This document shows, in pieces, positions 4,652 to 64,000 of a DNA stretch of 64,000 nucleotides (positions are counted from its first letter, which is position 1; every line of letters begins with the position of its first letter). The DNA lies in assembly GCA_003480425.1 (NCBI GenBank), contig QUJA01000003.1, positions 1 through 64,000 of the forward strand, given 5' to 3'. The notes below the pieces were generated by a model, which did no database searches, was not told where the DNA came from, and saw only the letters and a list, made by a program, of their open reading frames with translations. The DNA comes from Firmicutes bacterium AM31-12AC. GTDB lineage: Bacteria; Bacillota; Clostridia; Lachnospirales; Lachnospiraceae. Made by a program: the position numbers and the translations under genes.

Positions 4652-5065
4652 CTAGCGTTTTACAACCTTCACAGCTGCACTTTCATTCGCATTCAATTCA
4701 ATACTCACGCTAAGTTTACCACTTAAATTTGTTGTCATCTTACCTGCTGAAGCTTCATCAATAAATACTTCATACTCACTATCCGGCTCAAGCTCCAATG
4801 TAAACTGTACATCTTCCGGTGCTGAAACTTCAAATTCCACTTCACGGTCTGTCTCTTTGAAATTCTCTACCGCACTTCCTGGAACTGATTCGTATACAAA
4901 CATTCCATTCTTCTCAAGTTTTGTAATCTCTGCAAATGTTTTAACTTTATAAAGATCTCCTTCAAATTCAAAATTGTCTAACTTTGTCTTTGATGTAAGT
5001 GTATAATCTCCAAAACTTAATGTTCCGTCACTTTCTGCACGTAATAATTCTTTTACTGTTGCCAT
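4652..5065 (-). CDS. Conserved Lachnospiraceae protein (often labelled endosialidase)
   Basis: A 137-residue, acidic, soluble protein without signal peptide or membrane segment. Its first part (MATVKELLRAESDGTLSFGDY) and the EKNGMFVYESVPG stretch match, from memory, a family conserved in Lachnospiraceae that databases often name endosialidase with no experimental support. The second half looks beta-rich. A good ribosome site (AGGAGGACAG) precedes the ATG. It follows clpC by about 80 nt and ends in a strong terminator. The function is unknown. Confidence 0.75.
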   Translation of the reverse strand: MATVKELLRAESDGTLSFGDYTLTSKTKLDNFEFEGDLYKVKTFAEITKLEKNGMFVYESVPGSAVENFKETDREVEFEVSAPEDVQFTLELEPDSEYEVFIDEASAGKMTTNLSGKLSVSIELNANESAAVKVVKR

Positions 5066-5143
5066 CGTTACTGTCCTCCTACGTATCTCAGATCTTCTCT
5101 GTAGTATTGCTATCTTTAGTATAATATAAGTATCGTTTTTTTT

Positions 5144-7588
5144 CTACTTTTTTGTTTCTTTTCTCTCGACTTTTATGGAATTTTTAGAAACGCCTACTGC
5201 AACCATATCACCACTTTGAATGTCTCCATTCAAAATTGCCTCTGCAAGCTTATCTTCTAATTCTGTCTGCATCGCACGTCTCAATGGTCTTGCCCCATAC
5301 TTAGCATCCGTTCCTTTTTCAACAATTAAATCCTTTGCTGAATCACGTATTGTCAAACTAATATTCAACTGTCTTTTCACACGGGCAGTAAATTCTTTGC
5401 AAAGCAATGTCACAATCTGCTTCATATCTTTCTTTTCCAATGCATGAAATACGATTACTTCATCAATTCGATTCAAAAATTCCGGACGGAAGATCATTTT
5501 CACTTCATCCATCACATTCTGTTTCATTTTCTTATAATCACTTTGTGGATCTTCTTTTGTAGCGAACCCCAGTTTCTTAGGATCAATAATAGATTTTGCC
5601 CCGGCATTAGATGTCATAATAATAACCGTGTTACTAAAATCAACCATTCTTCCCTGCGAATCTGTAATATGCCCATCATCCAACACCTGTAATAAAATGT
5701 TAAATACATCCGGATGTGCTTTTTCAATCTCATCAAAAAGAATTACTGAATATGGTTGTGTACGAACCTTGTCACTAAGCTGACCGCCTTCTTCATGTCC
5801 TACATATCCCGGAGGTGATCCAATCATCTTTGACACTGAATGCTTCTCCATATATTCTGACATATCTACACGAATCATTGCTTCTTCTTTTCCAAATAGC
5901 GCTTCTGCCAATGCTTTGGATAACTCTGTTTTTCCTACCCCGGTTGGTCCTAAGAATAAAAATGAACCAATTGGTCGTTTTGGATCTTTCAATCCAACTC
6001 TTCCTCTTTTTACTGCACGAGCTACCGCATTGACCGCTTCATCCTGGCCGACCACTCTGTGATGCAGTTCTTTTTCAAGATTATTCAATCTCTGTGTATC
6101 GCTTTGCTGTAATTTCTGTACCGGAATCTTAGACCACGATGATACAATGGCAGCAATATCTTCCACCGAAACTTCCGGATTGCTTGATGCCATCTTTTTA
6201 TCAAATCTTTTTCTTGTAGATTCAATCTTTTTCTTAAGTTCCTGCTGCTTTTTTTGAATCTTAGAAGCTTCTTCGAAGTTTCCTTCTTTAATTGCACTTT
6301 CTTTCTGAAGACCCAATTGCTTCTTCTCATCTTCCATCTCTGTCAAATGTGCCGGAACCTTATAACCTGTCAGACTTACATGTGCACAAGCTTCATCCAA
6401 TACATCAATTGCCTTATCCGGAAGATTTCGATCTGTAATATAACGTTCCGAAAGCTCCACTGCTGCCTTCAACGCTTCTTCTGTAAGCTTCACTTTATGG
6501 TGTGCTTCATACTTCGGTTGAATTCCTTTTAATATATCCAGGCACTGTTCTTTTGAAGGCTTCTCGACTGTGATCGGCTGAAATCTTCTTTCCAAAGCTG
6601 CATCTTTTTCAATGTACTTGCGATACTCTGCGATCGTAGTTGCTCCGATCAACTGCAATTCCCCACGAGCCAGTGCCGGCTTTAATATACTAGATGCATC
6701 AATTGCACCTTCTGCTCCACCAGCTCCGATCATCGTATGTAATTCATCCAAAAACAAAATAATATCTCCGTCCGCTTCGACTTCAGATATCAGCCCTTTC
6801 ATACGTTCCTCAAATTCGCCTCTGTATTTTGAGCCTGCAATCAGCCCTGGAAGATCCAATGTATAGATACGTTTTCTTTTCATCGTTTCCGGCACAATCC
6901 CTGAAGCAATCCGCTGTGCCAGGCCTTCCAGAATAGCTGTTTTACCAACTCCCGGTTCTCCAACCAGGCATGGGTTATTCTTTGTTCTTCTGCTTAATAC
7001 CTGCATAAGACGAAAAATTTCTTCTTCTCTTCCTATAATAGGATCTAATTTTCCTTCTTCTGCTTCCGCAGTCAGGTCTTTACAAAATTGTTCCACGGCT
7101 CCGCCATTTCCACGAAGTCCATCCTGCAATTCATCCTGATATGCTTTCGGGTCAACCCCTGCTGCCACAAAAATGTCTTGCATCAGCTTCTGCAAATTTA
7201 CATTCAACGTAATCAGCATCTTTGCTGCAACACAATCTAAGTCTCGTATGATCGCCACAAGAATATGTTCTGTCCCTACTATATCCATATGAAAATGTGC
7301 CGCTTCACGCGCACTGTCTTCCAATATATATTGAAATCTTGGACTTTCTTTTGGCTTCTGTCTCTTTTCTGTCTTTTTATTTGGTGCTACGAGCTCATCC
7401 ATTAATTTTAAAAGCTTCTCTTCATCTACTCCATGACCTGCCAGCACCTGCCCTGCTACACTTGCAAATTCCTGCCGCAATCCAAGAAGCAAATGTTCTG
7501 TTCCTACATAAGGATGATTTAATTTCTTTGCTGCTTTTTCTGCATTGCTAATTGCATGCTGTGCCTGTTGTGTAAATTTAATCTGCAT
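5144..7588 (-). CDS. clpC: ATP-dependent Clp protease ATP-binding subunit ClpC
   Basis: An 814-residue class I Hsp100 unfoldase that feeds substrates to ClpP. Visible parts, in order: two Clp-N repeats (1-145), first AAA+ domain with GEPGVGKT at about 215, a UVR-type coiled middle (about 415-450, [18 protein letters not shown]), and second AAA+ domain with GPTGVGKT at about 550, then the D2-small C-terminus. The usual ctsR-mcsA-mcsB genes are absent; a GntR regulator lies immediately upstream in the same direction. Length and motifs are complete. Confidence 0.96.
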
Positions 7589-48237: not shown

Positions 48238-49710
48238 TTATTTACACAGTTTTTTGAATTCGTCTGCTACAAACTGAACCTTTGTACCAACAACAACCTG
48301 TACTGCATTCTTTCCAGGTCTGATTACTCCTGCAACACCTGCAGATTTAATCTTTTTCTCATCAACTGCTGTATAATCTTTGATTTCCAGACGAAGTCTT
48401 GTAATACAGTTATCAATAGATGTAACGTTTTCTTTTCCGCCAACACCTTCTAAGATAATTTTAGCAACTTCTGTATAATCATTGTTTGCCAGAGTTACTT
48501 TTGTTTCATCTGTATCGTCATCATCGTCTTCTCTACCTGGTGTTTTCAGATCGAATTTTGTAATTGCAAATCTAAATACAACGTAGAATACGATAAATGC
48601 TGCGATTCCAAGAGGAATGATCAACCATGTTTTCTGTGCTGCTGGAAGTGATGCTGAGAACAGAAGGTCTGTTGCTCCAGCTGAGAATGAGAATCCTGCA
48701 CGGAATCCAAGTAATGTAGTAATGACTGTAAAGATACCATATAACAATGCATATACTACATAAAGTCCAGGAGCAAGGAACATAAATCCAAACTCGAATG
48801 GCTCTGTAACACCACAAACAAATGCACAAAGTGCTGCTGATGCTACAAGACCGATTGCAACTTTTTTCTTGTTATCTTTAGCACACTGAATCATTGCCAA
48901 TGCTGCTCCAGGGATACCAAACATCATACATGGGAAGAATCCTGACATGTACATTCCAAGGCTCCAGTTAACATCTGCTGATGTTTCTCCAGCCCAGAAG
49001 TGTGTCAAATCTCCAAGTCCGATTGTGTCGAACCAGAATACGTTGTTCAATGCATGGTGCAATCCTGTTGGGATTAACAATCTGTTCAAGAATGCGTAGA
49101 TACCAGCTCCGATAGCTCTCATACCTGCAATTCCTTTACCAACTGAAATCAACAGTCCAAAGAGAATTGGCCATACGAACAATAATACTACTGATACAAT
49201 AATTGAAACCACACCAGCTACGATTGCAACGCAACGTTTTCCACTGAAGAATGAAAGCCAATCTGGTAATTTTGTGTTTTTGAATTTGTTGTAACATGTA
49301 GATCCGATAACACCTGCAAGAATACCGATAAATGGGTTTGCGATTTTATCGAATGCTAATGTTTTGTCTACATTATCTGCAATTGAAGGGAACAGAGTTG
49401 TTACAAAACCTGTACTTAATAATGTTGTGATCATTAACCATGATGCAAGTGCTGCAAGACCACCTGTACCATCATTATCTTCTGACATACCAACACCAAC
49501 ACCAATTACAAATAACAGTGCCATGTTATCAATTAATGCTCCACCTGCTTTTACCAAAAAGATACCTACTAATGGTCCAAAACCTGTGATATCTCCACCC
49601 TGCATACTAGCTGGACATAAGAGATATCCAATACCCATCAGGATACCACAAATTGGAAGACATGCTACAGGCAGCATTAAAGCTTTTCCTAATTTCTGTA
49701 AATACTTCAT
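48238..49710 (-). CDS. nagE: PTS N-acetylglucosamine-type EIICB
   Basis: A 490-residue permease. The EIIC domain (1-390) has about ten membrane helices and the GMYMSGFFPCMMFGIPGAAL stretch typical of NagE. The EIIB domain (415-490) carries the phospho-Cys in DNCITRLRLE. It lacks a fused EIIA; a separate EIIA gene precedes it by 129 nt. Adjacent nagA supports GlcNAc; glucose cannot be excluded. Confidence 0.88.
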   Translation of the reverse strand: MKYLQKLGKALMLPVACLPICGILMGIGYLLCPASMQGGDITGFGPLVGIFLVKAGGALIDNMALLFVIGVGVGMSEDNDGTGGLAALASWLMITTLLSTGFVTTLFPSIADNVDKTLAFDKIANPFIGILAGVIGSTCYNKFKNTKLPDWLSFFSGKRCVAIVAGVVSIIVSVVLLFVWPILFGLLISVGKGIAGMRAIGAGIYAFLNRLLIPTGLHHALNNVFWFDTIGLGDLTHFWAGETSADVNWSLGMYMSGFFPCMMFGIPGAALAMIQCAKDNKKKVAIGLVASAALCAFVCGVTEPFEFGFMFLAPGLYVVYALLYGIFTVITTLLGFRAGFSFSAGATDLLFSASLPAAQKTWLIIPLGIAAFIVFYVVFRFAITKFDLKTPGREDDDDDTDETKVTLANNDYTEVAKIILEGVGGKENVTSIDNCITRLRLEIKDYTAVDEKKIKSAGVAGVIRPGKNAVQVVVGTKVQFVADEFKKLCK

Positions 49711-49839
49711 ACCTTTACCTCCTCTAAATCACTCTCGTCTGTAAATCCCTTTATTTATTTTAACCCGGACATTACCAGGCAAAATACATTGATTAAGTTG
49801 TTCTTTCTGATATTCTGTGCTTTCTTTGAATATCGTTTA

Positions 49840-50328
49840 CTATTTTTCAGTGATAATGATTACATCGTCTCCAGCCTGTACATCTTTTCCGTCCAGACCA
49901 TTTACTGCGGCATAATCATCTGTATTGCAAATCAGCATTGGTGTGATTGTATCATAACCTGCTGCTTTTACCTTGTCTAAATCTACTTCTAAAAGTAAAT
50001 CACCTTTTTTTACAGTATCGCCTGCTTTCACATAACCTTTAAAACCTTCTCCATCCATCTTTACTGTATCAAGTCCGATATGGATAAGTATCTCAACACC
50101 TTCTTTTGTAGTCAAACTAACTGCATGAAGCGTATTAAACACCATTCCGATCGTTCCGTCTGCCGGAGCGTATATCTTACTGTCTTCAGGGCAAATTGCT
50201 ATTCCCTGTCCAAGCATTCCTTCACTAAATGTTGGATCGTTCACACTTGAAAGCGGTACTGCTTTTCCTTTTACTGGTGAACCGATAATCAATTCCAACT
50301 GCTTTTTCTTTTTAAAAAAATCAAACAT
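49840..50328 (-). CDS. PTS EIIA component, Glc family
   Basis: A 162-residue EIIA. The phosphorylated His is in ILIHIGLDTVKMDG (about residue 90). It lies 13 nt after the antiterminator gene and before the EIICB that lacks this domain, so it is the cognate donor. Confidence 0.9.
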   Translation of the reverse strand: MFDFFKKKKQLELIIGSPVKGKAVPLSSVNDPTFSEGMLGQGIAICPEDSKIYAPADGTIGMVFNTLHAVSLTTKEGVEILIHIGLDTVKMDGEGFKGYVKAGDTVKKGDLLLEVDLDKVKAAGYDTITPMLICNTDDYAAVNGLDGKDVQAGDDVIIITEK

Positions 50329-50341
50329 GTTCTTAGCCTCC

Positions 50342-51187
50342 TTATTTTTCCACCGCAGTAACTCTGCGAATATGAACTGATAAATACATAACTTCCTCGT
50401 CTGAAAGTGTACATCCTGTTGCTTCTTTTATATATGCTGCAACTTTCTCGCTGCAGTTATACTCTTTGGGATACTTTCGCTGCATCATCTGTGCTAATTC
50501 TTTATCTTCACTAGAAAGTAATTCCTTACGATAAATTCTCTGAAGCAAAAACTTCACATGTGTAACAAAGCGTTCATAATGCAATGATCCTTCATCTAAT
50601 TCCAGCCCCAGCTCTTGTTCCACGATCCTCACAATATCATTCATCTGATTAGGAAATTTTAATGCATCATGAATATCTGTTCCATACTCAGCATTTACAA
50701 AATGCAGTGCTATAAAACCTGCTTCATCCTCTGGTAATTTAATCCCCAGTCTTTCATATATCAGCTGTAATGCATATGTTCCAAGTTGAAACTCATGTGA
50801 ATAAAATCGTTTAATCTCCCACAATAACGCATTCTCCGGTTCGATTCCCTGGCTTACTCTCTCAATTGCAAAATTAATGTGATCAGTTAAAGTCACATAT
50901 ATACTCTGATTTAATTTTAACTTCAATTGATCTTTTGCATACGCAATAATCTCTGCTGAAATCTCCACGCGCTCCAACGGCATATCAGCGAGTAATTCTT
51001 TTAATTGTTCAGCAAGTGTTTTACTTTTCATTCTGAATATCTTTTCCACCTGCTCACTCGGTACAGTCTGTCCTGGTTTCTTCTTAAAACCAATCCCTCT
51101 GCCCATCACAACAACTTCTGTCCCCGACTCCTCAAACGCAGAAATTATATTATTATTGATCACTTTATCAATTATAATTTCTCCCAT
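50342..51187 (-). CDS. BglG/LicT family PRD antiterminator
   Basis: A 281-residue RNA-binding antiterminator: CAT domain (1-55, KVINNNIISAFEESGTEVVVMGRGIGF) and two PRDs (about 65-170 and 175-281) with conserved His in FALHFVNAE and LSVHIRR. The PTS phosphorylates the PRDs and so sets activity. A near-perfect RAT lies in its own leader, so it controls its own operon. Confidence 0.93.
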   Translation of the reverse strand: MGEIIIDKVINNNIISAFEESGTEVVVMGRGIGFKKKPGQTVPSEQVEKIFRMKSKTLAEQLKELLADMPLERVEISAEIIAYAKDQLKLKLNQSIYVTLTDHINFAIERVSQGIEPENALLWEIKRFYSHEFQLGTYALQLIYERLGIKLPEDEAGFIALHFVNAEYGTDIHDALKFPNQMNDIVRIVEQELGLELDEGSLHYERFVTHVKFLLQRIYRKELLSSEDKELAQMMQRKYPKEYNCSEKVAAYIKEATGCTLSDEEVMYLSVHIRRVTAVEK

Positions 51188-51207
51188 ATTATTCCTTTTC
51201 TATTACA

Positions 51208-51281
51208 TAAAAAAAGCCAGAACTACAGACTGAGACCCTCAGCCATAAATTCTGGTTTTGCCTGCCTTACAGTAACAATCC
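51208..51281 (-). promoter_or_regulatory. RAT antiterminator site overlapping an intrinsic terminator
   Basis: The RAT is at 51254-51281, starting GGATTGTTACTG and ending GCAGGCAAAACC, close to the E. coli bgl consensus. It overlaps the left arm of a terminator: CCAGAA (51250-51255) with TTCTGG (51217-51222), inner CTGAG/CTCAG, and a T7 tail (51209-51215). Binding of the antiterminator would block the terminator. Confidence 0.95.
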
Positions 51282-51304
51282 TCATAACTTCAATTGATAT
51301 TGTT

Positions 51305-51333
51305 ATTATAACAAATTCTCTTTTTATCGTCAA
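51305..51333 (-). promoter_or_regulatory. Promoter of the licT-type/PTS operon
   Basis: TTGACG (51328-51333), a 17-nt spacer and TATAAT (51305-51310) on the reverse strand. Transcription begins just before the RAT. Confidence 0.88.
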
Positions 51334-51452
51334 GCGTTCGTTTATTTTTTGTTAATAATGTTTATATTTCTTTTAGTTTATTGGTAATTCTGCTGATTAA
51401 TTATTTTTTGTTTCAAAATGTTTTTCATGCAATATTAACATTTTAATGTACT

Positions 51453-51481
51453 TTGACATATCTCACCAAAAAAGGTATACT
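51453..51481 (+). promoter_or_regulatory. Promoter of nagA
   Basis: TTGACA (51453-51458), a 17-nt spacer and TATACT (51476-51481). It is divergent from the PTS operon promoter. Confidence 0.88.
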
Positions 51482-51514
51482 TTTTATAAAAATAAATGTA
51501 GGGAGGTATATTTT

Positions 51515-52654
51515 ATGCTGATTCAAAGTAAAAAAGTTTGGATTGCGGATCAGTTTGTACCAGCAGTGATTGAAATCCATGAAGGTAAAATCACCGATGT
51601 TCTTCCATATGAAAGCAGAACACCTGATGTTGACTACGGGGACAAGCGCATTGTACCGGGTTTCCTCGATATTCATTGTCATGGTGCTTTCAAATTTGAC
51701 ACCAATGATGCAAACGAAGAAGGTCTTCGTAACTGGAGCAAACATATTGTTTCTGAAGGAGTAACTGCATTTCTTGCTACAACGATTACTCAAAGTGAAG
51801 AAATCTTAACTAATGCTGTTGCTAATGTCGCTAAAGTTATGGAGGATGGATATGAGGGTGCTGAAATCCTTGGCATTCACTTCGAGGGACCTTATCTTGA
51901 TATGAAATATAAAGGAGCACAGCCGGAGCAATTTATCGCAAAACCAACAATTGAACAGTTTGAAAGATATCAAGCTGCCGCTAAAGGACATATCAAATAT
52001 GTTACTATGGCTACCGAAACTGATGAAGATTTTACCTTGACACGTTATCTGGCTTCACATGGCGTAGTTGTCAGTATCGGACATTCTGCTGCAACTTATG
52101 AACAGGCAGTCATGGCATACGCACATGGTGCACGTTCTATGACACATGTATACAACGGCATGAGTCCGTTCACTCATCGCGCGAATGGTCTTGTAGGTGC
52201 AGCTTACCGTCTTCGTACTATGTATGGTGAGATTATCTGTGATGGCAATCACTCTACTCCTGCCGCCTTAAATAATTACTTTATGTCTAAAGGACCTGAT
52301 TATGCGATCATGATATCCGACGCATTAATGGCAAAAGGAACACCTGTAGGAAGTAAATTTATTTTCGGTGGAAATGAAATTGAGATTTATCCTGATGGAA
52401 GTGCGCATCTGACCGAAAGTGGTACACTTGCCGGTTCTACACTGAGATTAAACGAGGGACTTCGCATACTTGTCGAAGAGGCGCTTGTTCCATTTAACTA
52501 TGCGATCAACTCTTGTACTATCAATCCAGCGCGTTGCCTCGGCGTTGATGATCGAAAAGGTGCTATCGGAGTCGGAAAAGACGCTGATCTGGTTGTGTTG
52601 GATTCAGACTATAGCGTTTTACAAACCTATTGCATGGGAAATGCCAAACTTTAA
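51515..52654 (+). CDS. nagA: N-acetylglucosamine-6-phosphate deacetylase
   Basis: A 379-residue amidohydrolase that deacetylates GlcNAc-6-P made by the PTS. The GFLDIHCHGAFKFDTND metal site, GIHFEGPYL, GHSAATYEQA and MISDALMAKG motifs are present. The start at 51515 follows AGGGAGGTATATTTT; an earlier frame from 51446 overlaps the promoter. No nagB is in the window. Confidence 0.95.
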   Translation: MLIQSKKVWIADQFVPAVIEIHEGKITDVLPYESRTPDVDYGDKRIVPGFLDIHCHGAFKFDTNDANEEGLRNWSKHIVSEGVTAFLATTITQSEEILTNAVANVAKVMEDGYEGAEILGIHFEGPYLDMKYKGAQPEQFIAKPTIEQFERYQAAAKGHIKYVTMATETDEDFTLTRYLASHGVVVSIGHSAATYEQAVMAYAHGARSMTHVYNGMSPFTHRANGLVGAAYRLRTMYGEIICDGNHSTPAALNNYFMSKGPDYAIMISDALMAKGTPVGSKFIFGGNEIEIYPDGSAHLTESGTLAGSTLRLNEGLRILVEEALVPFNYAINSCTINPARCLGVDDRKGAIGVGKDADLVVLDSDYSVLQTYCMGNAKL

Positions 52655-54934: not shown

Positions 54935-55483
54935 CTACAGAATCGCATTGCGAATCTGTGCATCTGGATGTGCAATAACAGAAGAATCAAGGAACATTCC
55001 ATCCTCTGCTACTACGCTTTTAGCACGTTCGATCGCTGCTTCTACAGCTGCCACCTCGCCTGTGAGCATCATGTATGACTTACCACACATACCTCTTGCG
55101 ATTCTAAGCTCAACCAAATCAACAATTGCTGTTTTTGCAGCTTCATCTGCTGCTACAATAATCGATGTAGCATCATATGTTTCTACAATACCAAGTGCGG
55201 ATACATCCTCAATTGCTGTGGCACCATAGATTGCCGGAAAAATGGATTCGTGTGGGTTACCGAGCACAAAACTGTTGATCAAGTATCTTCCGTGCAGATT
55301 CTTTGCATTATCAACTGCTGCACGAACAGCACTCAGATCTCCTGAAATGATTACGATATATTTTCCCGGACATACGGTCTGTGCTTCAATGATATCGACT
55401 TCTGAGGTCTTTACCATAGCATCTGCTGCCACAACACCTGAAGCAACAGTCTTATATTCTACCATTCCAATTGCCTTACTCAT
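54935..55483 (-). CDS. pduT: Tandem-domain BMC shell protein, PduT type
   Basis: A 182-residue protein with two BMC domains (1-90, 95-182) that forms pseudohexameric trimers. AQTVCPGKY near residue 38 carries the Cys that in PduT binds a [4Fe-4S] cluster at the pore. Its start overlaps the pduS stop, so the redox pair PduS-PduT is coupled. It may pass electrons through the shell. Confidence 0.92.
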   Translation of the reverse strand: MSKAIGMVEYKTVASGVVAADAMVKTSEVDIIEAQTVCPGKYIVIISGDLSAVRAAVDNAKNLHGRYLINSFVLGNPHESIFPAIYGATAIEDVSALGIVETYDATSIIVAADEAAKTAIVDLVELRIARGMCGKSYMMLTGEVAAVEAAIERAKSVVAEDGMFLDSSVIAHPDAQIRNAIL

Positions 55484-56826
55484 TTACCTGCACGTCCTTC
55501 CTGAGTTTCTATAATTACATACTTGTCAGTAACTTCACTGACAACTCCATCTATAGATGCGTGGATTCCAACGCTCAATCCCTTAGCTGGTTCTGCAATC
55601 ATCTGTCCTTTTGTTACTTTATCGCCCTGTTTTACGATTGCTGCTGCCGGAGCACCAATATGCTGGCTCAGCATAATTTTAACTTTTGAAACAGGAACTA
55701 CAGACTCATCAAGCGGAGCCTCTTTATTGTATTTTGTCAGATCCAGTCTCGCCATCAGACGTTCCATAGGAACTTTACGATATTCACGTTCCGGTCCAAC
55801 CGGTTTTGCTTCTACCTTTGGCGGTCTGAGTCCATTTGCTCTTAAGCCAGCTTTATATTCTGCCATTAATGTTCTTGGTGATAATCCCTGCATGCAAGAA
55901 TACATCTCGCAAAGACCACAAGAAGAACAGAACATTGTATTTACAAAAATATTCGGTTCCTGAACATCTTTACATGTAGCAGCACGCATAAATAAATGTG
56001 GCTGGATTGGATGTCCCAGTCTGTTTCTTGGGCAAAGATCTGTACACATTGAACACTGACAACAACAAGCTGCTGCACGTTTCAGATCGATACTCGTTTT
56101 CTTTCTCTTTTTCTGAATGATCAAATGCTCTTCTGGAAGAACCAGTACTGCATTTGTTGTTTTTGTTACAGGAAGTGAACCACTTCCAATGAATCCCATC
56201 ATTGGTCCTCCAATAAAGTATACTGGATTCTTTGTTGTAATTCCACCTGCAAGTTTTACTGTATCTTCGATTGTAGTTCCAATAGGAACTCTGACTGTTA
56301 CCGGGTGATCTACCTCGGCAACAACAGATACCAGTTTATCTACAACCGGAGTACTTTGATTAATTGCTCTATATGCATTGTATACGGTCTCTACATTAAA
56401 TACGGCAACTCCCTGTTCAATCGGAAGTCCTCCCGGACGTACCACTTTCTTTGTAACTTCATAGATCAAAACAACTTCATCACCGGCTGGATACACTTCA
56501 TCCAGCAGTCCCAGTCTTACTTCCGGGTATGCTCCGATTACACCATTCAGTGCATCGATAGTCTTTGTATAAGCTTTTTTGATACCAATTACGAGTTCTT
56601 TTGCACCAACTGCCTGACCAATCAAATGAAATGTCTCAACAATCTCCTGTGCATATTTTTCCAGTAATTGTCTATGTAATCTCAGTAGTGGTTCACACTC
56701 TGCACAGTTAAGAATCAATGTCTCAGCATTTTCATTTAACTTTGCGTATGTAGGGAATCCGGCACCACCTGCACCAACAATACCATTTTGTTGCAATATG
56801 TTGCTTAATTCTTTCATATCCATCAT
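55480..56826 (-). CDS. pduS: PduS/RnfC-like flavoprotein with two [4Fe-4S] clusters
   Basis: A 448-residue protein with the RnfC-like N-terminal NGIVGAGGAGFPTYAKL, an SLBB region (about 165-230), ferredoxin motifs CCQCSMCTDLCP (about 260) and CSSCGLCEMYSC (about 300) and a C-terminal barrel. ATG at 56826 is preferred over a GTG at 56832 because GGAG is better spaced. In the Pdu system it reduces cobalamin, but no B12 enzyme is seen here, so a role in electron transfer through PduT is likelier. Confidence 0.92.
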   Translation of the reverse strand: MMDMKELSNILQQNGIVGAGGAGFPTYAKLNENAETLILNCAECEPLLRLHRQLLEKYAQEIVETFHLIGQAVGAKELVIGIKKAYTKTIDALNGVIGAYPEVRLGLLDEVYPAGDEVVLIYEVTKKVVRPGGLPIEQGVAVFNVETVYNAYRAINQSTPVVDKLVSVVAEVDHPVTVRVPIGTTIEDTVKLAGGITTKNPVYFIGGPMMGFIGSGSLPVTKTTNAVLVLPEEHLIIQKKRKKTSIDLKRAAACCCQCSMCTDLCPRNRLGHPIQPHLFMRAATCKDVQEPNIFVNTMFCSSCGLCEMYSCMQGLSPRTLMAEYKAGLRANGLRPPKVEAKPVGPEREYRKVPMERLMARLDLTKYNKEAPLDESVVPVSKVKIMLSQHIGAPAAAIVKQGDKVTKGQMIAEPAKGLSVGIHASIDGVVSEVTDKYVIIETQEGRAGK

Positions 56827-56831
56827 TTTCA

Positions 56832-57104
56832 CTACTCCAGTCCTGTTCCGTCATCAATAATTCCAACGATTGCAGCATCGATAGGTGCGTCCTCCATATC
56901 AGTTCCTACTCTGGCTGCACTTCCCTGTGCCACCAATACATAGTCTCCAATCCCGGCACCAATCTTGTCGATCGCAATGATCTGATCAGCTCCTCCGGTC
57001 TGTACATGCTGCTTCAACACTTCTACAATCATGAATTTATTTCCAACTAATCTTTCGCATTTCCGTGTTGATACAACACTGCCTTTCACTTTTCCTATCA
57101 GCAT
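56832..57104 (-). CDS. BMC vertex protein, EutN/CcmL family
   Basis: A 90-residue pentamer-forming protein that caps compartment vertices. MLIGKVKGSVVSTRKCERLVG and VAQGSAARV are family marks. The start at 57104 follows GAGGAGAAGATT; an earlier ATG at 57122 is unsupported. It lies between pduL and pduS. Confidence 0.93.
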   Translation of the reverse strand: MLIGKVKGSVVSTRKCERLVGNKFMIVEVLKQHVQTGGADQIIAIDKIGAGIGDYVLVAQGSAARVGTDMEDAPIDAAIVGIIDDGTGLE

Positions 57105-57134
57105 AATCTTCTCCTCTTGCAACCTGTAAGAAAT

Positions 57135-57782
57135 CTATTTGATAATTCTTACTGTATCTCCTGTCGCAATCTTCGCTGCATTCGCTTCATCTGTATCGAT
57201 ATGCATCTCAAGCGTAAAGCTGTCATCTACACGAATCTGTACATTGTTAAATGTTGTTCCGCGTTCATTATCTGCTTTAACCGAAACGATATCTCCATCA
57301 TGTACACCTGCTGCCATTGCATCTTGTGGTGCCATATGAATATGTCTTTTGGCTACAATACATCCTTCATTCAGGTAAATCGCACCTTTTGGTCCAACTA
57401 CCGCAATTGCAGCGGATCCTGCAATATTACCGGACTCTCTTATTGGAGCTTTTACTCCGAGACGAAGTGCATCTGTAGCAGAAATCTCTACCTGTGATTT
57501 ACTTCTGACCGGTCCCAGGATTCTAACATTCTCGATTGCTCTAAGCTTCAGACCAACAATTGTGACTGTCTCATTTGATGCAAATTGTCCGCCCATAAGC
57601 CCTTTTTTCTTTGTAAGCTGGTATCCTTCTCCGAATAAAGCTTCTACATGCTCCTGTGTCAGATGAATATGTCTTGCGGACACACCAACCGGAACCACAT
57701 AACCATTTTCAGAAGAAGCTTCCTGTTTCTGAATTGACTCCAGCACCATTCTTGTGATTAATTCTATACTTTGATTATCCAT
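57135..57782 (-). CDS. pduL: Phosphate propanoyltransferase PduL
   Basis: A 215-residue enzyme converting propionyl-CoA to propionyl-phosphate inside the compartment. Zinc-binding His are seen in VSARHIHLTQEHVEALFG and KRHIHMAPQDA. The N-terminal SIELITRMVLESIQKQ is an amphipathic helix like other encapsulation peptides. The start at 57782 follows AAGGAGACG. Confidence 0.94.
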   Translation of the reverse strand: MDNQSIELITRMVLESIQKQEASSENGYVVPVGVSARHIHLTQEHVEALFGEGYQLTKKKGLMGGQFASNETVTIVGLKLRAIENVRILGPVRSKSQVEISATDALRLGVKAPIRESGNIAGSAAIAVVGPKGAIYLNEGCIVAKRHIHMAPQDAMAAGVHDGDIVSVKADNERGTTFNNVQIRVDDSFTLEMHIDTDEANAAKIATGDTVRIIK

Positions 57783-57843
57783 AATACGTCTCCTTGTATT
57801 ATGCGGATTCTCCACATTTGGAAAATCATATCATTTTATGACA

Positions 57844-57898: not shown

Positions 57899-58393
57899 TT
57901 AGTCGATATGTGGAAGGATTTTTTCTACATCATTGTGTGGTCTTGGGATTACGTGTGTTGCTACTAATTCTCCAAGTCTTCCAGCTGCGTCTGCACCTGT
58001 TTCAACTGCTGATTTAACAGCTCCTACGTCTCCACGTACCATAACTGTTACAAGACCAGATCCGATTTTCTCTGTTCCTACTAATACTACGTTAGCAGCT
58101 TTTAACATTGCATCTGCTGCTTCGATTGATGCTACAAGACCTCTTGTTTCAACCATTCCTAATGCTTCCTGTGCCATTCTTTTTTCCTCCTTATGAATTG
58201 TTTCTGTTATCTGCTCTGCTTTTTGTGTTGTTTTTCTTACACGTTGCACTGTCTTAGCCGGTGCTTTTGCAGTTGCCGTTTTTGTTGTTTTCTTTGTGGA
58301 TGCAGCTTTTGTTGTACTCTTCTTAGCCGTACCAGCTGCTTTAGAAGACGCTTCTTTCTTCTCTTGACCTGTCGGCTTCTTTTCCTCTGCCAT
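57899..58393 (-). CDS. BMC-H shell protein with Lys/Thr/Ala-rich N-terminal extension and internal start
   Basis: The full frame is 164 residues from the ATG at 58393 (site AAGGAGGGCAG). Residues 1-72 are low-complexity and basic, with about 17 Lys and many Thr/Ala, like a histone-H1 tail. Residues 73-164 are a PduA/EutM-type BMC domain. A second strong site, AAGGAGG, lies eight bases before the ATG at 58177 (Met73), which alone would give a normal 92-residue BMC-H. Two products are therefore likely. The domain is nearly identical to the gene at 58770. The tail may bind nucleic acid, cargo or the shell lumen; this is unknown. Confidence 0.85.
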
Positions 58394-58407
58394 CGTAACT
58401 GCCCTCC

Positions 58408-58692
58408 TTAACAAACTCGATTCGCACTGTTCTCAATCAGTTTCAGAATCTCTTCATGGGGACTTGGGATTACAACATGAGCAACCGGGTCTTTGATTCC
58501 ATTGGCCGTAGCTGCTTCAATGGCCTGTGTTACCGATGATACATCTCCGCGGATGATAACCGTTACAAGTCTTCCACCTAACTTTTTTTCCCATGTAACC
58601 AGCTCTACTTCAGCTGTTTTGCACATAATATCAATTGCGACTACTGCTGCTGTTACACTTGGGATTTCAAAAAATCCATATGCCTGTCCCAT
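58408..58692 (-). CDS. BMC-H shell protein (divergent)
   Basis: A 94-residue single BMC domain ([27 protein letters not shown] ... [10 protein letters not shown]). It is clearly different from the PduA-like paralogues on either side, so it probably has its own pore. It is 14 nt upstream of the tailed BMC-H. Confidence 0.92.
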
Positions 58693-58769: not shown

Positions 58770-59045
58770 TTATACAGTAGGAAGGATTTTCTCAACGTCG
58801 TTGTGTGGTCTTGGGATTACGTGTGTTGCTACTAATTCTCCAAGTCTTCCAGCTGCGTCTGCACCTGTTTCAACTGCTGCTTTAACTGCTCCAACGTCTC
58901 CACGTACCATAACTGTTACAAGACCAGATCCGATTTTCTCTGTTCCTACCAATGTTACCTCTGCTGCTTTAGTCATTGCATCTGCTGCTTCGATTGCTGC
59001 TGTAAGTCCTCTTGTTTCTACCATTCCTAATGCTAACTGTGCCAT
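58770..59045 (-). CDS. BMC-H shell protein, PduA/EutM type
   Basis: A 91-residue major-shell type protein ([20 protein letters not shown] ... [15 protein letters not shown]). It has the pore-region [19 protein letters not shown]. At DNA level it is almost identical to the end of the tailed gene at 57899, including an 80-bp identical block, which suggests recent duplication or conversion. Confidence 0.95.
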
Positions 59046-59089: not shown

Positions 59090-59401
59090 TTATTTATCTA
59101 AACCACTAATTTTCAGCATCTTCTCTGTATCCTCTGTAGGTCTTGCGATTTCATATTCAGCGACAATTCCCGCAAGTTCATTTGCTCTTTTTGTTGCTGC
59201 CTCCAACGCTGCCTTTACATCTGATACACTTCCACGAAACTTAACCATTACGATCAATGGTACCGGTAATTCGTCTGCATTTGCCGGTTTATTCTTATCA
59301 AAAGTCTCCAGTCTTACATTACCTGCTTTACATCCCGCATCTGCTGCTGCAAATGCAGTTGCCAGCCCGAAGACTTCTAACATGCCTACTGCTTCTCCCA
59401 T
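59090..59401 (-). CDS. BMC-H shell protein with loop insertion
   Basis: A 103-residue BMC domain (GMLEVFGLATAFAAADAGCKAGNV). An insertion, DKNKPANADELPVP at about residues 36-49, precedes the pore strand, a form seen in shell proteins of glycyl-radical compartments. It lies first among the shell genes, after the Zn dehydrogenase. Confidence 0.9.
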   Translation of the reverse strand: MGEAVGMLEVFGLATAFAAADAGCKAGNVRLETFDKNKPANADELPVPLIVMVKFRGSVSDVKAALEAATKRANELAGIVAEYEIARPTEDTEKMLKISGLDK

Positions 59402-59427: not shown

Positions 59428-60645
59428 TTATTTATTCACAATCGCAATTTTAAGACCCTTCTGCTCTAAGTTTGTAATATGAGCTTCGTTGATCTCTTCC
59501 AATGGGAATTTGTGTGTGATAAGTTTTTCCATTGGAAGTCCGATTCCTTTTGCTCTCTTCAAGAAATCAAATGTTGTTGCATAATCTCTCAGTGTGTATA
59601 CCCAAGATCCTACCAATGTGATCTCTTTTGAACAAAGATCAAAGTGTGGGTTAATTGTTGCATCTCCACCATTGATGAAGAATCCAAGTTCACAAAGTCC
59701 TCCACCATTGCGGATGAATTTGTAAATATTAGCATGAGCTACAGGAGATCCTGTACACTGGAATGCAAAATCTGCTGCATGTCCGCCAAATGCTTCTTTT
59801 ACAGCACCTGCAAGTGCATCAATGCCTTTATGATTCATGAAGTTAACTGACTTCTCTGCTCCCATTTCTTTTGCGAATGCAAGTCTCTGCTCGTTACCAT
59901 CAACTGCCACAATATTCTCAATACCCATTGTACGCAAAACAGCGATACAAATCAAGCCGATTGGTCCACATCCCTGAACAACAACACGACTATTGAATCT
60001 TAAGATTCCAGTTGTTTTAGCTCTTTCTACTGCATGAACCAATACTGCACATGGCTCGATGAGGATTCGAGAATCCAGATCAAGATCACTTACATTAAAG
60101 ATTGAAGATCCTTCTCTGACTAAGATGTAATCTGAGAACCATCCATTCAAATGGATATCATCATCTGGAAGTAATCCGTATACATCAGCTCCACCGATAT
60201 TCTTCTTGTTCAAATCGAACATCTCGATCTCCGGATCATCTTTAAAAATCATACATGTTACAACTTTGTCTCCGACTTTCAGTGGTTTTCCTGCACTGTC
60301 AACTTTGACATTTTTACCCATTTTTACGATTTCTCCTGTACCCTCATGTCCAAGAGCAACTGGGATCAATCCAAATGGATCTCTCTTGAATTCGTGTGCG
60401 TCTGTTCCGCAGACTCCACAACCTTCTACTTTAACAAGAATATCTCCGTCACCAACTTCTGGGATTGGGAATTCTTTGATATCATAATGCTCCAGAGATG
60501 TCAGCATAGCTACGCGTGCTGTCTTTGGAATTGCCTGGCTTGCTGGTGCCGGCGCACTTGCTGCAGGTGCTGCAACAGGTGATTTTAACATATTTTCAAG
60601 TACCTGTTTTACAACTTCTTCTACGTTTGCAGAATTCATTTCCAT
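59428..60645 (-). CDS. Zn-dependent MDR alcohol dehydrogenase with encapsulation peptide
   Basis: A 405-residue medium-chain dehydrogenase. An N-terminal helix (NSANVEEVVKQVLENMLKS) and a Pro/Ala linker (to about 40) form a typical targeting signal. Catalytic zinc ligands are in GCGVCGTDAHEFK and GHEGTGEI; the nucleotide loop is GCGPIGLICIAVL. The four-Cys structural zinc lobe is absent. The start at 60645 follows GGAGGG. It probably interconverts lactaldehyde and 1,2-propanediol or propanal and propanol inside the compartment. Confidence 0.88.
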   Translation of the reverse strand: MEMNSANVEEVVKQVLENMLKSPVAAPAASAPAPASQAIPKTARVAMLTSLEHYDIKEFPIPEVGDGDILVKVEGCGVCGTDAHEFKRDPFGLIPVALGHEGTGEIVKMGKNVKVDSAGKPLKVGDKVVTCMIFKDDPEIEMFDLNKKNIGGADVYGLLPDDDIHLNGWFSDYILVREGSSIFNVSDLDLDSRILIEPCAVLVHAVERAKTTGILRFNSRVVVQGCGPIGLICIAVLRTMGIENIVAVDGNEQRLAFAKEMGAEKSVNFMNHKGIDALAGAVKEAFGGHAADFAFQCTGSPVAHANIYKFIRNGGGLCELGFFINGGDATINPHFDLCSKEITLVGSWVYTLRDYATTFDFLKRAKGIGLPMEKLITHKFPLEEINEAHITNLEQKGLKIAIVNK

Positions 60646-60664
60646 TGTGTTACCCTCCATATTA

Positions 60665-62053
60665 TTATCTGATACACAAGCTGTCTGTCATAACACATCT
60701 TCTTCTCTTAGTAAATGTGCTTGCGCTTGTCAGTCCTTCTCCTGTACGGCTTGCGATTGTGAAAGTACAGAATCCTTCACCACCAAAGCCAAGTGCTGAA
60801 TACGAAGGTCCATTCTTTACAAGAATAGCTGTATCAATTGCTTTTGCATATTTTGTAATGTTATCCACATTCTTTGAATGGATATGTGCAGAATGTCTGT
60901 TGCCATGCTCCAGCCACACTGCCTGCTCTACTGCATCATCAAAATCTTTTGCTCTGACAACACCGAGAATTGGCATCATCAATTCTTCTGCGATCAATGG
61001 ATGCTCCTTTGGTCCTTCAAATGTGATACATCTGATATTGTCCGGAACCTGAACTCCGATCATACCAAGTAATGTTTTAGCATCTCTACCTACACATTTA
61101 CGATTTAATTTTCCACCTTTGAGAACCACTTCTGTCAGTGCATCCTGCTCTTCTTTTGATGCAAGATAACATCCCTGTTCACTTACCATGTAGTGCATCA
61201 ATTCATCTGCAATAGAATCTACTGCAACGATTTCTTTTTCTGCGATACATGGGAGGTTGTTATCAAATGTACATCCGTTAACAATATCTTCTGCTGCTTT
61301 ACGGATGTCTGCTGTCTCATCTACCAGTGCCGGTGGGTTACCTGCTCCGGCTCCGATTCCTCTCTTACCAGAAGAAAGTACTGCTGTTACTACACCAGGA
61401 CCTCCTGTAGCTGCAATCAAAGGAATATCTTTATGTTTCATCATGACAGCACTTGTTTCCATCGTAGGTTTTTCAACAGTAACTGCGATATTATCTGGAC
61501 CGCCTGCTTCGATGGATGCTTCATTTAACATATTTACTGCATAAATAGAAGTCTTAATTGCCGCCGGATGTGGGTTGAATACAACTGTATTACCGCCTGC
61601 CAGCATTCCGATTGTATTACACAGAACTGTTTCACTTGGGTTTGTACAAGGAGTAATTGCTCCAATAACTCCAAATGGTCCCATCTCAATCAATGTAAGT
61701 CCTCTATCACCTGACCATGCAGTTGTTGTAATATCTTCTGTTCCAGGTGTTTTTTCAGCAACGAGCTGATGTTTTAAAATTTTATGTCCAACATTTCCCA
61801 TGCCTGTTTCCTGCACACCCATATGTGCAAAAGTTTCAGCATTTTCTTTAATTTTTGTTCTAATGTTAGAAATGATCTTTTCTCTCTGATCCATAGACAT
61901 CTTAGCAACGATTTTCTGTGATTTCTTCGCAGCTTCAATTGCTTCGTTCATGTCTTTGAATACTCCATGATTACCAGTCACATCGGCAGAAATCTGCATC
62001 TTTGCAACAACTTCTTTAACGATGTCCTGAATCATCTGTTCATTTACAGACAC
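60665..62053 (-). CDS. CoA-acylating propionaldehyde dehydrogenase, PduP type
   Basis: A 462-residue aldehyde dehydrogenase. The N-terminal helix MSVNEQMIQDIVKEVVAKMQ is an encapsulation peptide. The catalytic Cys is in FDNNLPCIAEKEI (about residue 270), and the nucleotide site in the GNTVVFNPHP region. It makes propionyl-CoA from propanal. Its start overlaps the preceding stop by 10 nt. Confidence 0.94.
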   Translation of the reverse strand: MSVNEQMIQDIVKEVVAKMQISADVTGNHGVFKDMNEAIEAAKKSQKIVAKMSMDQREKIISNIRTKIKENAETFAHMGVQETGMGNVGHKILKHQLVAEKTPGTEDITTTAWSGDRGLTLIEMGPFGVIGAITPCTNPSETVLCNTIGMLAGGNTVVFNPHPAAIKTSIYAVNMLNEASIEAGGPDNIAVTVEKPTMETSAVMMKHKDIPLIAATGGPGVVTAVLSSGKRGIGAGAGNPPALVDETADIRKAAEDIVNGCTFDNNLPCIAEKEIVAVDSIADELMHYMVSEQGCYLASKEEQDALTEVVLKGGKLNRKCVGRDAKTLLGMIGVQVPDNIRCITFEGPKEHPLIAEELMMPILGVVRAKDFDDAVEQAVWLEHGNRHSAHIHSKNVDNITKYAKAIDTAILVKNGPSYSALGFGGEGFCTFTIASRTGEGLTSASTFTKRRRCVMTDSLCIR

Positions 62054-62565
62054 GCTAATACCTCCTTAAAAGCTTCTTTTCCATAAGCAGCAAGCTCTGT
62101 GTCTTCTTTGGCACTGCCACCGCTTACACCTAAAGCTCCGATTATTTTGCCATCTGCTTCCAGCACCTCTCCACCGCCGAAGATTACAATCTTACCTTCA
62201 TTAGTGAACTGAATACCATATAACTCTTTACCCGGCTGGCTTAGTTCAGCCAGCTTTGCGGTAGACATTTTTAAGCTTGCCGAAGTAAATGATTTGTTCA
62301 ACGCAATGTCGAAACTTGCTATATAAGCACCATCCATACTCTGGACTGCCACCGGTCTCCCAGCAGCATCCGCAACCGCAATTACTACATTTAATCCCAT
62401 CGTCTCTGCCTTTGCCTTCACTTTATCGATCAGACTATTAGCTTTATCCAATGTCATCTTGTTCTTTTTACATTTACAGACATGTCCTTGTGCATGGTGA
62501 GAACCGTTCGCATTCATCCCTTCCAGCACAGCCTTCACTGCATTGGAAATATCCTGTTCGTTCAT
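62044..62565 (-). CDS. GlcG/HbpS (PduO C-terminal-like) protein with encapsulation peptide
   Basis: A 173-residue protein: N-terminal amphipathic helix (MNEQDISNAVKAVLEGM), a His/Cys linker (HHAQGHVCKCKK) and a GlcG/DUF336 domain (about 40-173, IAVADAAGRPVAVQSMDGAY ... IFGGGEVL). Relatives bind heme or cobalamin; the His/Cys linker may bind metal. The start at 62565 follows GAGGACTGG. Confidence 0.87.
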   Translation of the reverse strand: MNEQDISNAVKAVLEGMNANGSHHAQGHVCKCKKNKMTLDKANSLIDKVKAKAETMGLNVVIAVADAAGRPVAVQSMDGAYIASFDIALNKSFTSASLKMSTAKLAELSQPGKELYGIQFTNEGKIVIFGGGEVLEADGKIIGALGVSGGSAKEDTELAAYGKEAFKEVLACL

Positions 62566-62591
62566 ACCAGTCCTCATTTCTTATATATAAA

Positions 62592-63395
62592 TTATTTTCC
62601 TAACTGATCCATAACTTTCTTTGTGATAGAAGCAATCAGGTCTGCATCTACTGTTGCTGCTTCATGTGATCCACAGTTTCCTCCACATGAGTGGCAGTTT
62701 GGTTTACCAGCTTTTGCATTTGGGCAAAGGTTTGCAGGATGTTTTCCCGGAAGTCCCATCTGTCTTCTGATTTCATAAAGTTTTTCAACCTGCTCTTTGT
62801 TCAGTTCCTGTGGTCCACCGATCTGCATTGTCTGCCATAACAGACGAGCGTAGAACTCTACTGACTCCATCTTGTGGTATGCATTTAATAAAGAATCAGA
62901 ATATGTTAATGCTCCGTGGTTCTCAAGAAGAACTGCATCGAAATACTGAAGATATTCAGAAACTGCATCTGGAATCTCCATTGTAGAAGGTGTACCATAT
63001 TTAGCAACCGGAACACATCCAAGAGCGATAACTGCCTCTGGCATGATTGGCTGTGTCAAAGGAATACCTGCAATTGCAAATGTTGTTGCATAAAGTGGAT
63101 GAGCATGTACTACAGAATTAACATCTGGTCTCTCTTTGTAAACACGCATATGCATTTTGATCTCTGATGATGGTTTGAATCCTGGGTTAGCCTGGATTAC
63201 ATTACCATTAGCATCTACTTTACAGATATACTCTGGTGTCATAAATCCTTTACTTACTCCTGTTGGTGTGCAAAGGAATTCGTTGTCGTTCAATTTTACT
63301 GAAAAGTTACCATCATTTGCTGCAACCATTCCACGATTATAAACGCGTCTACCGATCTCACACATCTCTTTTTTGATTTCATACTCGTTAACCAT
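62592..63395 (-). CDS. Class II aldolase (L-fuculose-1-phosphate type) with C-terminal encapsulation peptide
   Basis: A 267-residue Zn aldolase that cuts fuculose-1-P to DHAP and L-lactaldehyde. Zinc ligands are in VVHAHPLYATTFA and LENHGAL, the active Glu is near IMPEAVIALG. After the enzyme domain comes a Cys/Gly linker (CHSCGGNCG) and the helix DADLIASITKKVMDQLGK, a targeting signal. The start at 63395 follows AAGGAGGAAAC; an upstream in-frame ATG at 63479 precedes the promoter -10. It opens the operon. Confidence 0.93.
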   Translation of the reverse strand: MVNEYEIKKEMCEIGRRVYNRGMVAANDGNFSVKLNDNEFLCTPTGVSKGFMTPEYICKVDANGNVIQANPGFKPSSEIKMHMRVYKERPDVNSVVHAHPLYATTFAIAGIPLTQPIMPEAVIALGCVPVAKYGTPSTMEIPDAVSEYLQYFDAVLLENHGALTYSDSLLNAYHKMESVEFYARLLWQTMQIGGPQELNKEQVEKLYEIRRQMGLPGKHPANLCPNAKAGKPNCHSCGGNCGSHEAATVDADLIASITKKVMDQLGK

Positions 63396-63450
63396 TCTTG
63401 TTTCCTCCTTGGATTTTACAAAAAATTTGTTTTTTGTTATTTCTAACTTG

Positions 63451-63659: not shown

Positions 63660-63690
63660 GTTACTATTCACACTTCGTGTGACCAGCTAT
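63660..63690. repeat. Family A repeat fragment after the activase gene
   Basis: GTTACTATTCACAC and GTGTGACCAGCTATC match the family A left end; TCACAC/GTGTGA form a short hairpin. It touches the stop region of the activase gene. Confidence 0.55.
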
Positions 63691-64000
63691 CATCCGCCGA
63701 TCTGACACTCGATTCCCGATGTCACCTCAGCTACTTTCAATAGCTTTTCCATATGTTCATTTGTCGGAGGTTTTACATCCCCCATCAAATACTCTCGATT
63801 CAATCCGGTGTATTTATCCTGTCCTAATCTATGATATGGCAACAAATGCATACGTTTCACATTAGGAAGTGTCGCTGTATAAGCTGCAATCTGACGGATT
63901 TCCTCTTCTGTATCATTGAACCCCGGTATAACCGGAACTCTTATGCTAAGTTCTGTCATTCCAGACTTTGCAATCTTCATCGCATTTTCTATCATCAGTT
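63690..64000 (-). CDS. Glycyl-radical enzyme activating protein, C-terminal part
   Basis: At least 103 residues of a radical-SAM activase; the CxxxCxxC end is beyond the window. The visible part, IRVPVIPGFNDTEEEI and MHLLPYHRLGQDKYTGL, is the conserved C-terminal half of PflA-like activases. It would install the glycyl radical on a B12-independent 1,2-propanediol dehydratase, expected next to it outside the window. Confidence 0.9.
   Translation of the reverse strand, partial: LMIENAMKIAKSGMTELSIRVPVIPGFNDTEEEIRQIAAYTATLPNVKRMHLLPYHRLGQDKYTGLNREYLMGDVKPPTNEHMEKLLKVAEVTSGIECQIGG

Follow-up and report, generated by a model that had tools for sequence, protein, structure and literature searches.

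A single BMC-H gene in a metabolosome operon appears, judging from its sequence, to yield two shell tiles, one plain and one bearing an N-terminal tail. The gene has a strong ribosome site before each of two in-frame starts, and the same arrangement was found in the same slot of many related operons.

Gene structure and operon context

The gene occupies 57899..58393 on the minus strand of the window, by which we mean the whole 64,000-nucleotide stretch of DNA that was analysed. The first-pass annotation gave its coordinates and sizes correctly, without a strand. Translation from the first ATG (58393-58391) to the stop codon, which ends at 57899, gives a long form of 164 aa. An internal in-frame ATG (58177-58175) opens the short form, a plain BMC-H protein of 92 aa (57899..58177). 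The 72 codons between the two starts (58178..58393) encode a tail that is rich in K, T and A, has a net charge of +12 and is predicted to be mostly disordered. Two strong ribosome sites in one frame had been claimed, and the Shine-Dalgarno (SD) sequence TAAGGAGG indeed precedes each start. The first copy (SD1) lies at 58403..58410, 9 nt 5' of the ATG at 58393, and the internal copy (SD2) at 58186..58193, 8 nt 5' of the internal ATG and within the codons for HKEEKR. The TAA of SD1 also terminates the upstream BMC gene (58408-58692), which suggests translational coupling. In the window, pairing with the anti-SD was about equal for SD1 and SD2 (-12.6 versus -12.2 kcal/mol), so the long form may not be a minor product there.

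The neighbouring operon genes given here with coordinates also lie on the minus strand. The operon has four BMC-H genes in all, and the other three, identified from the ORF list and Pfam, lie upstream of the tailed one: the first of the shell cluster (59090..59401), a plain 91-aa, tail-less paralogue of the tailed gene's domain in a conserved slot (58770..59045) and a 94-aa protein in the PduK slot without a long C-terminal extension (58408..58692). On the downstream side are a PduL-type phosphate propanoyltransferase (57135..57815; PF06130, with NF011652 over its cut-off), an EutN/CcmL-type BMC-P vertex protein (56832..57104; PF03319; its listed ORF opens at 57122), a PduS-like Fe-S flavoprotein (55480..56832; PF01512, PF13375 and PF13534) and a PduT-like BMC-T with two BMC stretches (54935..55483; TIGR02526 below its cut-off). 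Beyond the shell cluster, in the upstream direction, are a Zn-dependent alcohol dehydrogenase (59428..60660; PF00107 and PF08240), a CoA-acylating aldehyde dehydrogenase of the metabolosome type (60665..62053; PF00171, with NF011927 over its cut-off), an HbpS-like protein (62044..62577; PF03928), a class II aldolase of the fuculose/rhamnulose-phosphate type (62592..63422; PF00596, with the 25 NCBIfam matches listed all below their cut-offs) and a glycyl-radical-enzyme activase of which the window contains only a C-terminal part (63690..63998; partial TIGR02494 match at 4.5e-21, below its cut-off, and no Pfam match). A DeoR regulator and an Fe-alcohol dehydrogenase also belong to the operon. 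Judged by this set of enzyme and shell genes, in which the class II aldolase, aldehyde dehydrogenase, PduL, PduS and PduT are present and the activase is partial, the locus is of the GRM5 type (fucose/rhamnose) as a section of PMC6325248 describes it. The Zn-dependent enzyme is a putative lactaldehyde reductase, a name suggested by descriptions of GRM5, and its N-terminal extension resembles an encapsulation peptide. In a tree of this alcohol dehydrogenase, the nearest to the window was that of M. catenae, at 92%, which makes the host a relative of Mediterraneibacter.

The placement of the gene in a glycyl-radical compartment was borne out by the activase fragment at the window edge and by the relatives. 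A glycyl radical enzyme (PF02901) adjoined the locus in all six tailed relatives searched, two of which (L034 and L018) had their contigs assigned from coordinates; none was found inside the window itself. Beside the metabolosome operon lies an N-acetylglucosamine cluster (window 48238-52654), with a PTS IIBC gene (TIGR01998 just below its cut-off), a LicT-type antiterminator and nagA (over cut-off) and, assigned by eye, an IIA-like ORF at 49840-50328.

Selection on the internal start and conservation of the tail

A motif applied to 185 loci plus the window, which missed some plain relatives (e.g., in L072), gave 318 distinct PduA-like BMC-H genes. Every gene bearing the motif had a Met at the domain start. 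A gene counted as tailed if an in-frame start further upstream had an SD match of at least 4 nt, a filter passed by 100 genes. The tail of L067 was judged to be a chance frame and was dropped, leaving 99 tailed genes, whose proteins were all distinct on recheck. Evident tails in L007 and L015 had no start passing the filter; these two stood outside the 99 and were counted as tailed in the tree label and PduV tests below. The 99 tails were 19 to 114 residues long (median, 46), and their net charge was positive in 90, zero in 2 and negative in 7.

The internal site was compared with expectation by redrawing the final seven codons of each tail among their synonyms, according to the codon usage of the gene concerned, in 20,000 draws. 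The results showed an internal SD match of at least 6 nt in 97 of the 99 tailed genes, which include close relatives and are not independent, against 22.4 expected (maximum, 37). For matches of at least 7 nt, 86 were observed and 14.0 expected. The spacing between SD2 and the ATG was 8 in 96 of the 99 genes, and the first Glu of the site was encoded by GAG in 91 of 93 cases, compared with 385 of the 1,204 other Glu codons of these genes. As a control, an SD of at least 6 nt was found at 47 of 4,813 internal in-frame ATGs (about 1%) in 514 ORFs of neighbouring enzyme genes, and an SD of 6 nt was found at none of the 18 other Met codons inside the tails. Because 97 of 99 genes had the site where about 22 were expected, and because it occurs at about 1% of ordinary internal ATGs, these sequences point clearly to selection on the internal start. 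Pairing with the anti-SD was stronger at SD2 than at SD1 in 95 of the 99 genes (mean, -11.7 versus -7.7 kcal/mol), and SD2 was on average more accessible (0.73 versus 0.57). We infer that both proteins are made, and these values predict an excess of the plain form.

The tail and the internal site are found beyond this genome: the tailed gene was present in 97 of the 149 GRM5-type shell clusters that could be located between an alcohol dehydrogenase gene and a BMC-P gene, a tail-enriched figure rather than an unbiased frequency, since the loci were gathered by similarity to the tailed protein. It is therefore not a single-genome oddity. Among the 149 clusters, L141 and L148 have the same pair of neighbours, which leaves 148 distinct pairs, and 50 clusters are tail-less (52 by the filter, minus L007 and L015). 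Wherever a tailed cluster had two canonical BMC-H genes (88 cases), the tailed gene was the second. Its domain was as close to the plain gene of the same locus (median identity, 85%) as to other tailed domains (84%). A cluster without the plain paralogue was found only in L030 (labelled Lachnoclostridium phytofermentans) and L109, which form one lineage; there, the internal start may be the sole source of that type of plain tile. Among the genomes drawn from the family and from the class of M. catenae, any match to the protein was found in 117 of 397 and 112 of 391, respectively.

Close relatives kept the tail, as the first-pass reading implied. Among the 120 best-listed matches, which were ranked by similarity and include fragments, 116 had one BMC domain and 4 had two, and all 116 one-domain proteins carried a tail of at least 15 residues with a net positive charge. 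A second search, started from a distant relative, listed 118 new matches, of which 14 had two domains, 16 were untailed and 88 were tailed; these 88 tails were positive in 66 cases, neutral in 10 and negative in 12. On a tree of 124 rows, the tail label was clustered, with at least 15 changes against a shuffled mean of 38. Although L144 and L146 are nearly identical in the neighbouring alcohol dehydrogenase, the cluster of one has a 23-residue tail and that of the other has none, which is a recent gain or loss of the tail.

The tail is also constrained as a protein. With the last seven codons excluded, tail dN/dS was at most 0.27 in 14 of 17 close pairs, which are not independent of one another; the exceptions had values of 0.41, 0.57 and 0.97. 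In an alignment of 37 rows (the window plus 36 hand-chosen from the 120 best-listed matches), K43, P45, K47 and R51, around a 12-residue lineage motif, were invariant. F, W, Y, L and C together made up 0.8% of the residues of 97 tails, the last 10 residues excluded. Glu made up 13% of tail residues, a content in which histone H1 is unlike these tails.

Tails were also found outside GRM5. A further 40 loci were picked mostly from weaker matches; 33 of them were without the alcohol dehydrogenase marker, and three of the 33 were tailed (L193, L207 and L209), each with an internal SD of 6 to 8 nt at a spacing of 8. The BMC-H tails of the Mahella-type lineage (L193, positions 5486-5926, and L207, positions 4691-5131, minus) have an AT-hook-like core, KRRGRPRKSD. 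Both tails contain YKRRGRPRKSDSEKKN, with 16 of 16 residues identical despite five synonymous codon changes, whereas 19 of 34 residues were identical before this conserved core. The Pfam AT_hook profile (PF02178) gave 13.4 bits for L193 and 13.3 for L207, below its cut-off of 17.4. Two of three genomes searched in the order of this lineage have the core. AT-hooks bind AT-rich DNA, and we take the core, from its sequence, as the strongest single pointer to a DNA partner, within this one lineage. Tails of this type are net negative in their database copies (-7 in P0121 and -4 in P0122), so that any binding would have to come from a local motif rather than from overall charge. The operons of L193 and L207 also encode an aldehyde dehydrogenase, an acetate kinase, a PF01116 aldolase, PduL, BMC-P and a PduS-like protein. 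The third locus, L209, has a tailed Lys/Glu-rich BMC-H with an internal ribosome site (positions 3998-4414) and, in addition, a PduV-EutP GTPase and a PilM/FtsA-like gene; no aldolase was found among the nine ORFs scanned.

Orientation and possible role of the tail

The tailed protein was modelled with AlphaFold2. A first model was set aside as poor, with the start of the domain pulled into a long helix, probably owing to a narrow alignment. In the second model, which was used, the block pLDDT was mostly 91 to 96 for the BMC domain and 47 to 59 for tail residues 1-70. Foldseek returned EutM (4axj) as the top match (E value, 4.8e-13), with PduA chains also matched, and a sequence search of the PDB confirmed the kinship to PduA/EutM. 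The BMC profile PF00936 matched one stretch, residues 77-152 of 164, with 103.5 bits against a cut-off of 24.5, and was the only Pfam match; the EutK-type PF16365 was absent, and no PduB model matched the protein, which has one BMC domain, not two. A low-confidence helix was predicted at residues 50-74 (window 58172-58246), overlapping the end of the 12-residue motif; on the strength of the model, it could be a candidate binding site for some partner.

The window tail comprises 17 K, 3 R, 14 T, 12 A, 8 E and no D. Its description as histone-like stands for composition only. Neither a histone nor any other family of Pfam and NCBIfam matched it significantly (best E value, 1.1 or worse, to unrelated families), the AT-hook PF02178 gave no match, and homology of the tail to such families was rejected. 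Its composition and low pLDDT would be compatible with a disordered Lys/Ala-rich tail of the PhaF/AlgP type, provided that it lies on the organelle surface, where it is predicted to be.

Canonical BMC-H proteins have both termini on the concave face (a passage of PMC5534457), and that face is described as cytosolic (a passage of PMC10902431). The tail should therefore point outward. Loss of PduK moves Pdu compartments to the poles, and its flexible extension was suggested, in a section of PMC9132943, to act on the outer face. The histone-like tails of PhaF, PhaM and AlgP can attach granules to the nucleoid or influence how they are spaced (passages of PMC13052382, PMC3574117 and PMC9239181). 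On account of the face literature, the positioning by PduK and these precedents, we favour an outward tether, tentatively and as a whole at somewhat less than an even chance. From one GRM5 BMC-H gene, two initiation events would produce mainly the plain form, with the tailed form as a minor product. Both would fold as PduA/EutM-type subunits and mix in the shell, with the N terminus on the concave cytosolic side, so that sparse disordered tails would project from the organelle. By analogy with PhaF, PhaM and AlgP, the tails may bind polyanions of the cell, chiefly the nucleoid, which would spread the organelles and share them at division, and internal initiation would keep most tiles plain. 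Either RNA, as had been suggested, or DNA is a possible partner.

The positive charge of 90 of the 99 tails, the known histone-like tethers and the AT-hook-like core of the Mahella type speak for this tether. Against it, 9 of the 99 tails and 22 of the 88 listed tailed matches of the second search had zero or negative charge, and about a third of the clusters, 50 of 149, are tail-less, so the tail is not essential. The idea that the tail replaces PduV, a proposed positioning GTPase, was not upheld. In a first look by hand, a strong PduV match lay within 10 kb of the locus in 4 of 17 tailed and 11 of 19 untailed genomes, a hint of exclusion. In a larger test, restricted to clusters with at least 3 kb of flank, it was found in 21 of the 50 tailed clusters and in 22 of the 38 untailed ones (Fisher p 0.20), with no mutual exclusion, and short flanks may conceal some PduV. 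Taken together, the neutral or acidic tails, the untailed clusters and the lack of PduV exclusion weaken a universal positioning role. We consider doubtful the broader proposition that compartments are placed without a ParA-type motor, by shell tails that attach to the nucleoid at a density set by two ribosome sites, with lineages swapping the DNA-binding module (an H1-like stretch or an AT-hook) and keeping the two-start device.

A generic surface brush, or a funnel at the pore mouth, would be compatible with much of the data. In the former, polyampholyte bristles would prevent shells from stacking or sticking, and partner and charge would matter little. The tails do vary freely in sequence, length (19 to 114 residues) and charge, some of them neutral or acidic, and yet stay hydrophilic; the brush is nonetheless unlikely, and the positive bias in 90 of 99 tails and the conserved lineage motifs, namely, the four residues invariant in 37 rows and the AT-hook-like core, speak against it. 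Anchoring of cargo or an assembly scaffold had been proposed by the first-pass annotation; placed on the lumen side, in the style of the PduB N terminus, it is quite unlikely. PduB is a different protein, a BMC-T with two BMC domains, whereas the tailed gene has one. The operon does encode an enzyme core, and the first 37 residues of PduB do join shell and core (a section of PMC9132943), but a cargo anchor inside the shell is not supported, because the canonical BMC-H termini are on the concave, cytosolic face (PMC5534457 and PMC10902431, in the passages noted above). We regard as improbable an electrostatic funnel, in which Lys-rich tails at the outer pore mouth would attract anionic fuculose- or rhamnulose-phosphate imported for the internal aldolase. 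Such a funnel would account for the concentration of tails in clusters of GRM5 gene order (97 of the 100 that passed the filter) and for the finding of only three tails in the 33 loci without the marker, two of them beside a PF01116 aldolase, and positive concave faces are described in part of PMC10902431 as bicarbonate funnels; the neutral and acidic tails, the untailed GRM5 clusters and the tailed non-GRM5 locus without an aldolase among its nine scanned ORFs (L209) argue against it. Finally, an annotation artefact, in which translation gives the short form alone and the frame of the tail is either a relic or open by chance, is highly improbable: the stronger internal SD in 95 of 99 genes and the 92-aa database entry from Mahella (P0125) would fit it, and the upstream SD of at least 4 nt, having itself been a filter, gives no independent evidence for a real tail, but a chance frame was rejected because 14 of 17 close pairs show constraint on the protein and because K/A/T/E-rich tails recur at this operon position in many Clostridia.

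Comparison with known shell and granule proteins

The likeness to PduB/PduB' noted in the first-pass annotation holds in its logic only, namely that a further in-frame start is preceded by a ribosome site. The CcmM58/CcmM35 pair of the beta-carboxysome also arises from an internal start. These are two forms of one BMC component, according to a passage of PMC10902431, but CcmM is a luminal scaffold, whereas the tailed BMC-H is a shell tile. PduB and PduB' have overlapping in-frame starts, and the longer form carries an N-terminal extension (the relevant section of PMC9132943); that extension, of 37 residues, binds the enzyme core, whereas the tail here is K/T/A-rich and expected outside.

EutK and PduK combine a BMC-H domain with a flexible or putative nucleic-acid-binding extension, and PduK affects positioning. 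Unlike the unfolded N-terminal tail described here, their extensions are C-terminal with folded elements (PF16365 and a Cys motif, respectively), and the passages that describe them mention no second start. The neighbour in the PduK slot of the window is only 94 residues long. In general, BMC-H extensions reach 200 residues and are mostly C-terminal (a section of PMC8217296). PhaF, PhaM and AlgP resemble the tailed tile in being organelle-bound, with a histone-like DNA-binding part that influences granule position; they differ in coating polyester or polyphosphate granules, and the window tail has no detected homology to a family, its DNA binding being our proposal. A published counterpart is Cphy_1182 of Clostridium phytofermentans, in the same slot before PduL, of which only residues 73-161 match PduA (PMC3557285, in a footnote). 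Judging from this span, Cphy_1182 evidently carries a tail; the passages that report it make no comment on a tail or an internal start. Among the papers listed by full-text searches of an open-access library, none was recognised as a description of such a tail or of its internal start.

According to a passage of PMC8262871, it is unclear how metabolosomes are positioned and passed on at division, and a passage of PMC13052382 calls for more work on non-carboxysome compartments. A shell gene whose two starts are conserved and whose tail points outward would offer a simple genetic handle on positioning in Lachnospiraceae and related Clostridia, and a natural route to shell decoration at a set density, useful in shell engineering. 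Genome annotation chooses one start and conceals the other form. In four of the best-listed matches (P0015, P0025, P0027 and P0120) and 14 matches of the second search, the BMC profile found two stretches per protein; from their sequences, these proteins near the BMC-H query are possible tandem BMC-H fusions.
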